A stretch of DNA of 64,000 nt, from assembly GCF_032302195.1 (NCBI RefSeq), contig NZ_CP135275.1, positions 1,488,001 to 1,552,000 of the forward strand. The letters are read 5' to 3'. The notes below the pieces were generated by a model. It was not told the DNA's origin, ran no database searches, and saw nothing but the letters and a program-made list of their open reading frames with translations. The first letter of the stretch is position 1. Each line of letters starts with the position of its first letter. The stretch is from Paenibacillus sp. MMS20-IR301. GTDB lineage: Bacteria; Bacillota; Bacilli; Paenibacillales; Paenibacillaceae. The position numbers were made by a program, and so were the translations under genes. Positions 14,247 through 18,609 of this stretch are shown piece by piece.

Positions 14247-16334
14247 TTACAGCTGCTCTGTTGACGGGCGCAGCACTCCGCCTGTGAAGGAGGAAGCGGC
14301 AGCGGGTTCCACTGCACCGTTTCCGGCGCCGGCTCCAAGCTGGAGCTGATACATCCGGAAGTAACGCCCGCCCATGGCCATAAGCTCATCATGGCTGCCG
14401 CGTTCCACAATTTCCCCGCGGTGCAGGACCAGAATCTGGTCTGCGCTGCGGATGGTGGATAAGCGGTGGGCGATGATGAAGGTCGTCCGGCCCTTTTTCA
14501 GCACTTCAAGCGCCTCCTGGATGATACTCTCGGTCTCGGTATCGATGTTCGAGGTCGCTTCATCCAGAATCAGAATTGCCGGATCGAAGGATAGCGCCCG
14601 CGCGAACGAGATCAGCTGACGCTGACCGGCGGACAATGTGCTGCCCTTTTCGATGACCGGCTCGTCAAAGCCTTTAGGCAGGTGAGCCAGCAGCTTGTCG
14701 GCACCGACTTCACGCAAGGCCCGTTCTACCCGCTGCCGGGAGATGCGTTCATCGCCAAGGCTGACATTGGAGGCGATGGTTCCGGTGAAGAGATAAGGGT
14801 CCTGCAGTACAATGCCCATATGACTGCGCAGCCATTGCTTCGGCAGCCCCTTGACCTCTTGCCCGTCAATGGTAATGCTTCCGGTTTGCGGATCATAGAA
14901 ACGGAAGAGCAGGTTGATGATGGAGCTTTTCCCTGAACCGGTATGGCCGACAAGCGCAACTGTTTCGCCCGGACGCGCCTCGAAGGAGATATCGCGCAGA
15001 ACGTAGTCCTTTTTATAAGCGAAAGACACATCCTTGAATACGACTTCGCCCTTATAGCGGGGCATGGAGCCATCGGTTACCGGTTCCCCAGGCTCATCCA
15101 TCAGCGTGAAGACGCGTCCGGCAGAGACCATCGAGCTGTCCAGGTTGGCGAGTTGATTGACCATCCCTGTGATCGGCTGGAACATCCGTCCCAGTACGTC
15201 GACGAAAGCATACAGCACGCCGAGCGAAACGAAGGTTGAACCGTCCAGACTGCCGAAGCCGAAGTACCACAATACGAGTACGAAGGAGAGGCTGCGCAGG
15301 GAGTTCACAAGGTTGTGGGAGGTGAAGGCATTCAGGTTCAGCATTTTATTCTGGTATTTCAGATAGTCATCATTCAGCTGCTCGAATTCAGCGCTGCTCT
15401 GCTTCTGGCGGCGGAAAATCCGGATGATCGACATCCCCTGAATCGATTCGTTAATAATGGCATTGATCTCGCTCAGACGCGAGCGGATGATCGTATTATA
15501 CTTGGTTGCCACCTTGCGGTAGAGCACGATCCAGATGATGATAACCGGCACGATGAACAAGCTTACGAGGCCCAGCTTCACATCCAGCAGGAAGAGTGCG
15601 ACATAGACACCGGTAATATTAATAATCCCTGTAGCAAAATTGGAGAGAACCGCAATGAACAGGTCTTTCACGGCCTCGGTATCATTGGTTACCCGCGAGA
15701 CAACCTTACCCGCCGGCAGATTATCGAAGAAATGCACCGGCAGCCGCTGGATATGGGCATACACATCGGTCCGGAGCTTACGGATTACTTGATTTGCTGA
15801 AGATTGCAGCCAGTAGGTTTTACCGAACTCCGCAATTATGGAGATCACAAGGAACATGGCATACAGGGCTACCAGCTCATAAATACCGGGAAGCTCCGGC
15901 TTGTAGAATGAAAACAGCTGATCCGCTGACAGCTTCACGGCCGGATAGACCGTTTCCTGTTCTCCGTAACGGATATGCAGCTTCCCGTCAGTGAAGCTTC
16001 GTTCACCTTCCGGCTGCGCCACAGCTTCATTGATGAAATAGAAGCTTCTGCCGGCCTGAAGCAGGCGGACCTCCTGGCCCTTTGCTTCATCTTCGGCAAA
16101 CCGGTCACCGCGTTTGTAATAGGTATTGTTATATTCAGCCGCTTCTTCATGCGAAGCCGTCTGGAAATAAGGCTTTTCAATGGCGAGCAGGTGATTGTCG
16201 ATCATGCTTTTGGCAATGAACGGCCCGGCCAGCTCAGCCGCTACCCCGATCGTAAGGAGCAGAAGGGCGGCGATAAAGGTTTTTTTGGCAGTCAGTGCGT
16301 ACTGCAGCAGACGTTTGCCTGTACTCTGTGTCAA
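14247..16334 (-). CDS. bmrD: heterodimeric ABC multidrug exporter, BmrD/YheH-like subunit
   Basis: This half-transporter of about 695 residues has an N-terminal membrane domain with a long hydrophilic insert near residues 55-140, between the first two membrane helices. That extracellular domain is characteristic of BmrD. The C-terminal ATPase has Walker A GHTGSGKSS, signature LSAGQRQ and Walker B ILILDEATSNID, with a normal catalytic glutamate. The start is probably TTG at 16334: AGGAGG is eight bases before it, while the GTG at 16343 overlaps that site. The partner gene ends 42 bases upstream. Expected role: drug or lipid efflux as a heterodimer with the 582-residue subunit. Confidence 0.88.
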   Translation of the reverse strand: MTQSTGKRLLQYALTAKKTFIAALLLLTIGVAAELAGPFIAKSMIDNHLLAIEKPYFQTASHEEAAEYNNTYYKRGDRFAEDEAKGQEVRLLQAGRSFYFINEAVAQPEGERSFTDGKLHIRYGEQETVYPAVKLSADQLFSFYKPELPGIYELVALYAMFLVISIIAEFGKTYWLQSSANQVIRKLRTDVYAHIQRLPVHFFDNLPAGKVVSRVTNDTEAVKDLFIAVLSNFATGIINITGVYVALFLLDVKLGLVSLFIVPVIIIWIVLYRKVATKYNTIIRSRLSEINAIINESIQGMSIIRIFRRQKQSSAEFEQLNDDYLKYQNKMLNLNAFTSHNLVNSLRSLSFVLVLWYFGFGSLDGSTFVSLGVLYAFVDVLGRMFQPITGMVNQLANLDSSMVSAGRVFTLMDEPGEPVTDGSMPRYKGEVVFKDVSFAYKKDYVLRDISFEARPGETVALVGHTGSGKSSIINLLFRFYDPQTGSITIDGQEVKGLPKQWLRSHMGIVLQDPYLFTGTIASNVSLGDERISRQRVERALREVGADKLLAHLPKGFDEPVIEKGSTLSAGQRQLISFARALSFDPAILILDEATSNIDTETESIIQEALEVLKKGRTTFIIAHRLSTIRSADQILVLHRGEIVERGSHDELMAMGGRYFRMYQLQLGAGAGNGAVEPAAASSFTGGVLRPSTEQL

Positions 16335-16376
16335 CGGTGACACCTCCTGAAAGTTTTGTGGAAAGGAAGCGTGAGC

Positions 16377-18125
16377 TTAGTCGTTCGTCAGATTGTTCTC
16401 CACCTGCTGGCGTTCAAACTGCTCGCGGTACCAGCCGCCCAGCTCCAGCAGCTCCTGATGGGTACCCCGCTCAGTAATATGGCCGCCGTCAAGCACCACA
16501 ATCAGGTCGGCATGTTCAATGGCCGAGAGGCGGTGGGTGGAGATCAGTGTGGTTTTACCGCTGCGCTCTTCACGGATATTCTCGATAATCTTCGCTTCCG
16601 TACGGGCGTCTACTGCAGACAAGGCATCGTCCAGAATAAGAATGTCAGGATTTGAGATGAATGCCCGGGAGATGGAGACCCGCTGCTTCTGGCCGCCGGA
16701 GAGGGAAACCCCGCGTTCGCCGACCGTGGTGTCCAGCCCGTCGGAGAGGGTGCCCAGGTCATTCTGGAACGCAGCTGCCGTAATCGCCTGCATAATAAGT
16801 TCATCGCTGGCTCCGGCATGGCCGAACTGGATATTTTCACGAACCGATTTGGAGAAGAGAATCTGCTCCTGCGGCACATACCCCATCCAGCTGTGTAACT
16901 GATCCAGGGCAATCTGGTTAATCGGAACGCCGGAGATCAGAATTTCACCTTGTCCGGTCGGGTATTCATGGAGCAGCTGCTTCAGCAGGGTCGATTTACC
17001 GCTGCCGGTCCGGCCGACAACACCCAGCGTCTGGCCCTGGGACAGGGACAGGCTGACACCGCTCAGGTTATCGATGGCTGAGGTCGGATAGCGGAAGGTT
17101 ACATTCTTCAGCTCAATCGAAGAAGGTCCGGCTACCGGAGTCGGATGCGGCATATCCGCTACATCAGGCTTCGCATTCAGTGTCTCATCAATCCGCTCCA
17201 GCGAGGCGCCGCCGCGCTGCATAATATTGATCAGCTCACCGATCGCGAACATCGGCCAGACAATCATACCGAGGTACATATTGAAGGAGACAAGATCTCC
17301 AAGTGTAATTTGATTGCGGAAGACCAGATAGATCCCGTAAGTCAGGGCAATAATGTAGCTCAGCCCCACACAGAAGCGGATCGTCGGCTCGAAAAATGCA
17401 TCCACCCGGGCAACAGCCATGTTTTTGCGGTACACATCATCGGTAATGTCAGAGAAACGTTTCTCATCCAGCCGTTCCTGCACATAAGCACGGATAACGC
17501 GTATGCCGGATACTGATTCAAGCACCTGGTCGTTCATGTCGCCGAAGGCATCCTGTGCCAGGCTGTAGCGGTCATGAATGGCTTTGCCGTAATAGATCAT
17601 GGCGATTGCGATCAGCGGCAGCGGAATTACTGCAGCCAGGGTCAGCTTCCAGCTGACCAGGAAGCCCATTGCGAACAGTACGACGGTCAGATAGACTGTA
17701 GAATCGACAAGGGTAAGCATACCAAAACCTACAGTTGCCGAGACCGCGCGGATATCATTGGTGGCACGGGCCATCAGATCACCTGTACGGTTGCGCTCGA
17801 AGAAGGCAGGCGTCATAGTCATTAGATGGTTCATGAAGCGTGAGCGGAGCAGGCGTTCTACCAGGTTGGAGCCCCCGAACAGCTTGTGCATCCATATGTA
17901 GGTGATCCAGTAAATAGTCAGCAGCATAAATACGATCAAGCCGATATATTTCATTAAGGAGCCTGCGGTAATGGCACCGCTGACAATATCGTCAATAGCG
18001 TTGCCCAGGAGACGTGGAGGCAGAAGTTCAAGTATACCTACCACAATTAACAGTACAAGGCCTATCGCATAGCGCCTTTTTTCCCGGCGGAAGAACCAGC
18101 CGAGATCGCGGAGAACGGAGAACAA
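16377..18125 (-). CDS. bmrC: heterodimeric ABC multidrug exporter, BmrC/YheI-like subunit
   Basis: This half-transporter has 582 residues, close to the length of BmrC. It has six membrane helices in residues 1-310, Walker A GRTGSGKST, signature LSGGQKQR and Walker B ILILDDALSAVD. The residue after the Walker B aspartate is Asp rather than Glu. That makes one ATP site degenerate, as in BmrC, while the partner keeps the Glu. It starts at TTG with AAGGAAGGG upstream. The gene is first in its operon, behind a leader with a terminator (18195-18228) and candidate leader ORFs, so expression is probably controlled by attenuation. Confidence 0.9.
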   Translation of the reverse strand: MFSVLRDLGWFFRREKRRYAIGLVLLIVVGILELLPPRLLGNAIDDIVSGAITAGSLMKYIGLIVFMLLTIYWITYIWMHKLFGGSNLVERLLRSRFMNHLMTMTPAFFERNRTGDLMARATNDIRAVSATVGFGMLTLVDSTVYLTVVLFAMGFLVSWKLTLAAVIPLPLIAIAMIYYGKAIHDRYSLAQDAFGDMNDQVLESVSGIRVIRAYVQERLDEKRFSDITDDVYRKNMAVARVDAFFEPTIRFCVGLSYIIALTYGIYLVFRNQITLGDLVSFNMYLGMIVWPMFAIGELINIMQRGGASLERIDETLNAKPDVADMPHPTPVAGPSSIELKNVTFRYPTSAIDNLSGVSLSLSQGQTLGVVGRTGSGKSTLLKQLLHEYPTGQGEILISGVPINQIALDQLHSWMGYVPQEQILFSKSVRENIQFGHAGASDELIMQAITAAAFQNDLGTLSDGLDTTVGERGVSLSGGQKQRVSISRAFISNPDILILDDALSAVDARTEAKIIENIREERSGKTTLISTHRLSAIEHADLIVVLDGGHITERGTHQELLELGGWYREQFERQQVENNLTND

Positions 18126-18194
18126 GGGAAATCCCTTCCTTTCATGTTGTGAATGTTGTTTGCCGGCAAAGTGGAGTGTACTCTCTCAGCATGC

Positions 18195-18228
18195 AAAAAA
18201 GCGTACCATCCGAAAACGGATGATACGC
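18195..18228 (-). terminator. leader terminator (attenuator) upstream of bmrC
   Basis: The arms 18217-18228 and 18201-18212 form 12 pairs with one G-U on the minus-strand RNA. The loop is four U and a run of six U follows. It sits upstream of the bmrC start rather than after a gene, so it would stop transcription before bmrC unless relieved. Confidence 0.85.
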
Positions 18229-18331
18229 CTGTATTTACGACGTTCATGTCTACGGTGCTAATCGCAGCACAGAGACATGGAAGAGATGTACTTGCCTGAA
18301 TTCATACGGTACGCGTAACACGTAAGAAGGT

Positions 18332-18412
18332 TCAGGAAGGCTCCACTACTCGGGCTGCTTCGGTATTATATTGTTTATTGTTGCCGGCACCGGCTGGATC
18401 AATAGTAAACAC
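18332..18412 (-). CDS. candidate 26-residue leader peptide of bmrCD
   Basis: A GTG at 18412 stands six bases after the Shine-Dalgarno-like GAAAGGGTG and opens a frame of 26 codons ending in TGA at 18332. The stop lies in the first arm of the next hairpin. A stalled ribosome would therefore prevent that hairpin and change folding downstream. It lies where bmrB lies in B. subtilis, but I do not claim sequence similarity. Alternative small frames exist: 15 codons at 18305-18258, and a 61-codon frame from 18247 that reads through the terminator. Neither has a good ribosome site. Confidence 0.45.
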   Translation of the reverse strand: MFTIDPAGAGNNKQYNTEAARVVEPS

Positions 18413-18470
18413 CGCGCTCACCCTTTCATTAATTTGGTAATAACTTGCAGATGCTTCGTTATGTTCCGAG

Positions 18471-18498
18471 TTTATCATCCCGCTTCGAGAATTGTCAA
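18471..18498 (-). promoter_or_regulatory. promoter of the bmrCD leader
   Basis: On the minus strand TTGACA (18493-18498) is followed after 16 bases by GATAAA (18471-18476), a four-of-six match to the -10 box. It lies about 60 bases before the candidate leader ORF. Confidence 0.55.
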
Positions 18499-18609
18499 AT
18501 GTAATTTTGAACAAATACCGAATAAGCGGTATGATGAAATAGGCTTCTGCCATCTGGAGCCTGTATTTTAATCAGACTTTCTTGAGAGTTGCGGGAGGAG
18601 TGGAGAGAG

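Follow-up and report, generated by a model that had tools for sequence, protein, structure and literature searches.

A conserved bmrCD leader in Paenibacillus with competing helices and a likely ribosome-position sensor

The bmrCD leader and its occurrence in the genus

The window, a stretch of 64,000 nt from Paenibacillus sp. MMS20-IR301, harbors on its minus strand a short leader directly upstream of orthologues of yheI and yheH, here called bmrC and bmrD. The products match YheI and YheH of B. subtilis, in agreement with the description of the exporter as BmrCD-like in a previous sequence-only reading. The leader comprises a promoter, a short ORF, a series of segments that can pair in alternative ways (R0 to R6) and an intrinsic terminator. 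All features lie on the minus strand:

18469 to 18498, minus: promoter, with TTGACA (18498-18493), 18 nt and a TG-extended TAAACT (18474-18469)
18407 to 18424, minus: R0, which spans the leader Shine-Dalgarno motif, the spacer and the start codon and pairs with R1 (from the fold and covariation)
18332 to 18412, minus: predicted leader ORF, GTG start, 26 codons, MFTIDPAGAGNNKQYNTEAARVVEPS, TGA stop
18351 to 18368, minus: R1, TAATACCGAAGCAGCCCG inside the ORF, partner of R0 or R3 (from the fold and comparison)
18295 to 18336, minus: H1, a hairpin between R1 and R3 that holds the leader stop codon (from the fold)
18264 to 18282, minus: R3, TTCCATGTCTCTGTGCTGC, which forms the 5' arm of H2 and can pair with R1 instead (from comparison)
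18241 to 18259, minus: R4, the 3' arm of H2 and its neighbour, AGCACCGTAGACATGAACG, proposed 5' strand of the antiterminator
18245 to 18279, minus: H2 (R3:R4), proposed anti-antiterminator (from the fold and a permutation test)
18195 to 18230, minus: intrinsic terminator, with R5 (18230-18217), R6 (18212-18199) and a T run (18200-18195)
18134 to 18139, minus: Shine-Dalgarno motif of bmrC, GGAAGG (by eye)
16377 to 18125, minus: bmrC, yheI orthologue, TTG start, 582 aa (YheI, PDB 8t1p, E 4.6e-245)
14247 to 16343, minus: bmrD, yheH orthologue, 698 aa (YheH in PDB, E 3.9e-254)

The −35 and −10 elements of the leader promoter agree with the consensus at 10 of 12 positions and give the top score among 14 promoter-like sites between 14000 and 22000. 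Judged by its letters, this is a housekeeping-type promoter. Both TTGACA and TGATAAACTC are largely kept across the genus sequences aligned, and the Shine-Dalgarno motif of bmrC is similar in most of them (this alignment was made without L061-L065, five sequences that are included in the later genus comparisons). The GTG of the leader ORF sits behind AAAGGGTGA; the choice of this start rests on the Shine-Dalgarno motif and its conservation, because the frame is open upstream as far as an ATG at 18553. At the likely start of the transcript (18462-18440) there is a stem, ATAAC..GTTAT, that the genus apparently retains with substitutions in both arms (by eye) and that may stabilise the RNA.

The minimum-free-energy fold of 18463-18195 contains H1, H2 and the terminator (z −3.84, with 0 of 200 dinucleotide shuffles as good). 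In the same fold R0 (18424-18407) pairs with R1, which corresponds to codons 15-21 of the leader ORF (18368-18351). The terminator consists of 14 pairs (18230-18199) leading into T6 and is also found by terminator prediction in the window. The sequence and this fold confirm the promoter, the 26-codon ORF with its ribosome site, the two hairpins and the terminator before bmrC, all of which had been proposed from the letters, as well as the position of the leader stop codon (TGA) inside the hairpin 18336-18295. Among 4227 Rfam models, none matches the window at the gathering threshold and none matches 18100-18520 at E values up to 5.

A DNA search with the leader across 100 same-genus genomes gives matches in 66 of them, counting the genome of the window itself, and 65 of the 66 matched loci lie directly upstream of a bmrC orthologue; the last one (L066), a chance match with no bmrC, was dropped. 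Of the remaining 34 genomes, 31 contain a bmrC, found irrespective of the leader, and 30 leaders of this group were read (27 fit by rule and the other 3 by eye). There is no bmrC at the threshold in G042, G044 and G089, and G004, which has bmrC, and G005 stand outside the leader count. The leader therefore occurs in 95 of the 95 genus bmrC upstream regions examined, 65 found by leader similarity and 30 by bmrC alone. With a leader ORF, alternative stems and a terminator in each of these 95, the general reading as a ribosome-mediated attenuator of a BmrCD-like exporter is well supported.

The leader ORF runs for 26-42 codons from a GTG located 5-6 nt past the Shine-Dalgarno motif in 65 of 65 genus leaders, and a short ORF with such a motif is also kept open in 30 of 30 further leaders. 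A script places the R1 segment in frame in 64 genus leaders, and direct counting does so for the window, where the script had picked up an earlier AATA. In the alignment of the 65 the indels between the start and R1 are multiples of three (by eye). A hairpin is present at the position of H1 in relatives, in varied form (by eye), and the terminator arm TATCRTCCG lies between the leader ORF and bmrC in all 65. The distance from terminator to bmrC is about 206 nt in L041, L044 and L045, compared with about 83-150 elsewhere. In L043, an insert before bmrC, downstream of the terminator, carries a further hairpin-like stretch and a T run (by eye).

Pairings within the leader, in the genus and across Bacilli

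The pairing of the start region with the late codons, R0:R1, was compared between own and swapped partners in 23 representatives of less than 80% identity. Own partners have a mean of −19.1 kcal/mol and swapped partners −17.3, and 0 of 20000 permutations are as good, in a test that, like all partner permutations given here, ignores the relatedness of the genomes. The pairing is present in the free full-length ensemble of 23/23 of these representatives. In 110 distinct genus and family leaders, the pair at the first base of the start codon is G:C in 90, A:U in 19 and G:U in 1, and the one at position −1 is G:C in 74, C:G in 18 and A:U in 8, with 4 other and 6 unpaired. Since the pairs are those of predicted best duplexes, the paired state is favoured by construction and the evidence lies in the change of pair types; the counts are not independent events, because the lineages are related. 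The true start is uncertain in 3 of the 19 A:U cases (L046, L053, L054), where an in-frame ATG stands immediately before the GTG. In L210 the partner of the start codon is altered through a bulge rather than a substitution. Read in this way, the comparison indicates that R0:R1 covaries, start codon included.

R1 has a second partner. The core helix of R1:R3 joins GCAGC-CC with GG-T-GCTGC, and both sides are changed in L061, L063 and L065 (by eye). As few as 6 of 20000 permutations are as good as the own pairs for the core and 4 of 20000 for extended segments; with a shortened R3 segment the value is 3339 of 20000, which is not significant, and the 6 of 20000 belongs to the corrected cut. For H2 (R3:R4) no permutation in 20000 equals the own pairs, and for the terminator (R5:R6) 47 do. 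R0:R1 and R1:R3 share R1, and R1:R3 and R3:R4 share R3, so that R1:R3 and each of the other two helices exclude one another, and all three beat swapped partners. The comparison of related leaders, proposed along with the sequence-only reading, finds ORF and stems conserved, and its covariation supports R0:R1, R1:R3 (within the genus), R3:R4 and R5:R6 as candidate elements. Permutation of 18 other segment pairs gave values of at least 3590 of 20000 for 16. R1 (18368-18351) with the 3' arm of the terminator, R6 (18212-18199), gave 42 of 20000; this pair is not proposed and has no role in the model. A pairing of R0 with R5, suggested by one truncated fold, was rejected as unsupported (4668 of 20000).

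A class-wide search across 299 genomes gives bmrC in 130 at E values up to 1e-200. A fixed rule, applied to 83 bmrC upstream regions from outside the genus, picked a leader ORF in 81 and found no candidate in two; several picks, for example at most loci of genus g2, are visibly the wrong ORF and were counted as failures. In 32 of the 81, no more than 2 of 200 shuffled ORF bodies give an R0:R1 as good, and in 17 none of the 200 does (mean z −1.84). As a control, the first 25 codons of 45 long ORFs of the window with good Shine-Dalgarno motifs reach that level in 0 of 45 cases (mean z +0.18). The paired sequences are wholly different across Bacilli, as in L121, where GGAGGGTTTGATAATGA pairs with TCATTGTCAGGCCCTCC; the survey that gave this pairing skipped 18 loci by hand, and the fixed-rule test covered all 83. 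R1:R3 is less general outside the genus, with at most 5 of 100 shuffles as good in 20 of 58 loci (mean z −1.0). These 58 are the loci with at most 20 of 200 R0:R1 shuffles as good, plus 12 with hand-set starts; loci without a T run or with less than 50 nt downstream (L139-L141 among them) were removed.

Scanning 295 family genomes with a narrow leader pattern gives a single occurrence in each of 39, which belong to genera g1 and g4, and no occurrence in the reversed control. Ten of the loci, from genus g4 throughout, were retrieved and lie upstream of bmrC in 10 of 10 cases. The pattern misses the window's own shorter ORF, and the count derived from it does not include 56 sampled genus g1 leaders and all g2 leaders, which misfit its spacing or letters. 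In a number of leaders of other families, a second short ORF with a good Shine-Dalgarno motif lies between the terminator and bmrC (L093, L106, L118, L120, L129, L134 and others), at about −100 to −30 from bmrC; the product of this ORF often has ESLEGG, ESG or a like sequence at its end. L109, L111, L114, L115 and L152 have tandem hairpins before bmrC, each followed by a T-rich run, a possible double attenuator.

The Bacillus set consists of 13 named genomes (L167-L179) of 19 loci, from the B. subtilis group and near relatives, with strain 168 absent. An ORF of 23-31 codons with a Shine-Dalgarno motif and an ATG start, ending before the terminator, precedes bmrC in 13/13, and R0:R1 is found in 13/13 (−16.1 to −31.4 kcal/mol). 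Because an ORF of the same design occurs in all 13, the leader of the window and those of Bacillus probably represent variants of a common plan. In B. inaquosorum (L167), with the leader region at −297 to −225 relative to bmrC, a 53-codon GTG ORF spans the terminator in a frame that differs from that of the 23-codon ORF with Shine-Dalgarno motif and ATG; the latter looks like the real leader. An ORF that runs through the terminator and starts near the ATG is present in 5 of the 13 genomes and absent in 8. As this frame is missing in most of these genomes and the shorter ORF is kept in 13/13, the real leader is probably not read in the frame published for bmrB, and the 53-codon bmrB is a probable misannotation.

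Proposed mechanism and competing explanations

We consider it likely that the leader senses the position of the ribosome and controls bmrCD transcription through a chain of competing helices: R0:R1, R1:R3, R3:R4 (H2), R4:R5 (the antiterminator) and R5:R6 (the terminator). With no ribosome on the leader, R1, which lies in the late codons, would tie up R0 with the Shine-Dalgarno motif and start codon, R3 would be free, and H2 and the terminator would form, leaving the genes off. A ribosome held at the start or the first codons (in the window, footprint arithmetic puts the limit at roughly codon 9) would cover R0 and free R1. The freed R1 would take R3, H2 would be blocked and R4 would pair with R5, turning the genes on. 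A ribosome that reaches the stop codon would cover R1 and open the base of H1; R3:R4 would form and the genes would be off again. Drugs that stop the ribosome early would therefore induce whatever the peptide says. The leader could in this manner report stalled ribosomes without any particular peptide. The comparison of relatives lends support to the leader ORF, R0:R1, R1:R3 in the genus, H2 and the terminator; we infer R4:R5, the order of events and their kinetics, the inducing drugs and induction itself.

For the Bacilli as a whole, we lean slightly towards the view that bmrCD leaders share a peptide-independent sensor, in which the leader gene is antisense to its own ribosome binding site, the start is the sensor strand, a further mimic of the start, R3, sets off antitermination and the published bmrB is in the wrong frame. 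Titles and abstract openings of the literature searched, which did not cover subscription papers, describe neither leaders antisense to their Shine-Dalgarno motif nor a Paenibacillus bmrC leader. This arrangement provides a search rule for other drug-responsive leaders: a short ORF that ends in a stretch complementary to the Shine-Dalgarno motif in front of it and is followed by a terminator.

The weakest link of the model is the antiterminator. The R4:R5 match ATGATA:TATCRT recurs in the genus, and genus g2 has a geometry of similar appearance, GC[C]GTATG:CATAC[C]GC. Covariation of R4:R5 is absent in the genus, where swapped partners pair more strongly than own ones and 19935 of 20000 permutations equal or exceed the latter. 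A cross-genus test, without L037 and L200, where no terminator was detected, shows no preference for own partners either. At equilibrium, full transcripts form the terminator in 23/23 representatives in every state, so that a switch would have to be kinetic, set by the order and speed of folding. When transcripts are cut at R5, at least 4 expected pairs of R4:R5 are reached in 13/23 when free, 16/23 with R0 covered and 10/23 with R1 covered; R1:R3 does so in 12/23 with R0 covered and 12/23 free (means 6.2 vs 5.0). In the window's own leader with R0 covered, R4:R5 has 5.4 pairs and R1:R3 1.9, and H2 stays at 12.6. Equilibrium folding of the 23 representatives by itself does not show the switch.

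These values bear on the strongest competitor, a two-state attenuator as described for B. subtilis, in which a slow ribosome buys time for the antiterminator and R0:R1 just keeps translation of the leader low. It is the model published for bmrB in the sections of the source covered (PMC4191407), R0:R1 would be expected to reduce initiation on the leader anyway, and covering R0 fails to raise the frequency of R1:R3 at equilibrium (12/23 either way). However, it leaves unexplained the raised termination when translation of the B. subtilis leader is blocked, the additional pairing of R1 with R3 in the genus and the covariation of H2, the anti-antiterminator. Overall, we regard the two-state attenuator as rather unlikely.

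It is more improbable still that the leader acts mainly by translational attenuation, masking the Shine-Dalgarno motif of bmrC. TCTCTTCC (18286-18279), which is conserved, can form 8/8 pairs, one of them G:U, with GGAAGGGA before bmrC (by eye). Nevertheless, TTCC is also explained by pairing with GTGGAA beside R1, the match is lost in L061 and L063, and the terminator intervenes in the 65 genus leaders.

Slightly behind this, and very improbable, is an ErmCL-like arrest in which a drug-bound ribosome stalls on a nascent motif such as QLNTEAA. The motif Q-x-N/H-T-E-A-A is frequent among the 65 genus leaders, and Q-L-N recurs in other families. Nonetheless, the RNA segment is conserved even where it is read in another frame. 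L187, L188 and L191 retain GAATAYCGGTGCARCCC read as TIEYRC or TTEYRC (leaders of the TIEYRCSPAGG type) instead of QLNTGA, and related segments of L189, L192, L194, L196, L197 and L200 are also in the TIEYRC-type frame. In the family, a frame shift at the R1 segment distinguishes L091 from L092. In Bacillus, L174 has the segment in frame and L175-L177 have it out of frame, which makes the Q-L-N of other families look like inherited RNA. The N-terminal codons, where the ribosome drugs considered here usually act, are variable in the 65 genus leaders. A peptide conserved independently of its RNA, as in leaders of the ErmCL type, was not found: the frame changes and the RNA is kept. Since R1 is kept while read in more than one frame, it appears to act as RNA and not as an arrest peptide; a conserved arrest peptide behind the leader is unlikely, and this candidate was dropped. 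The earlier suggestion of the same logic as in B. subtilis with a different leader peptide holds in that the peptide does differ, but the peptide is seemingly not the sensor.

The antiterminator of the sequence-only reading, TGTTACGC (18320-18313) in H1, is indeed complementary at 7/8 positions to the 5' arm of the terminator but is hardly credible and was dropped after conservation and permutation tests, given that the octamer occurs in just 9/65 genus leaders, 8-mers with at least 7/8 complementarity are near chance (6/65 leaders vs a shuffled mean of 4.0), and H1:R5 gives 7406 of 20000 permutations for own against swapped partners with the whole of H1 and 1088 of 20000 with its 5' part.

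Comparison with known attenuators

As in the proposed mechanism, the E. coli trp attenuator, also cited in PMC4191407, has coding RNA at the end of the leader that alternates between two partners, with the position of the ribosome choosing between them, and termination increases when the leader is not translated. The window model would sense the start region rather than regulatory codons as in trp, because its first strand is the Shine-Dalgarno motif and start codon, and it includes one exchange more (R3:R4 before R4:R5).

In the ermC and cat-86 leaders, both also described in PMC4191407, and in the yxjB (tlrB) leader, the subject of PMC6851288, a ribosome-targeting drug stalls the ribosome on a short leader ORF, as is proposed for the window. 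These leaders depend on particular stall sites or peptides, and those of ermC and cat-86 act on translation. In contrast, the peptide of the window leader would be free to vary. The vmlR leader of B. subtilis likewise provides drug-responsive attenuation before a resistance gene of Bacillota; by its description, in the part of the source covered, it is set apart by an ABC-F gene and another leader (PMC9226507).

The closest system is the bmrB leader of B. subtilis. Both leaders precede YheI/YheH orthologues and contain a translated leader ORF (a predicted one in the window), and the parts of the bmrB study covered describe an anti-antiterminator, an antiterminator and a terminator, as in the window model (PMC4191407). 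R0:R1 is shared with the window by close relatives of B. subtilis. The published bmrB, of 53 codons from a GTG, spans the terminator, whereas the ORF of the window stops at 18332, about 100 nt before it. The bmrB structures are published for nt 60-162, and a pairing of the start region is unmentioned in the sections covered (PMC4191407). When translation of bmrB is blocked, there is less read-through and no induction by lincomycin (Reilman et al., 2014; PMC4191407). According to the same sections, chloramphenicol, erythromycin and lincomycin induce bmrCD and kanamycin and gentamicin do not, and the start mutant of bmrB also carries four changed bases in the 5'-UTR (PMC4191407), which may touch R0. 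A lock formed by R0:R1, released by an early stall, would predict the result of blocked bmrB translation and fit the spectrum of drugs. This gives a testable reason why blocked translation of bmrB raises termination and why only some ribosome drugs induce, and assigns to H2 the anti-antiterminator role that is called unclear for bmrB in the sections covered (PMC4191407).
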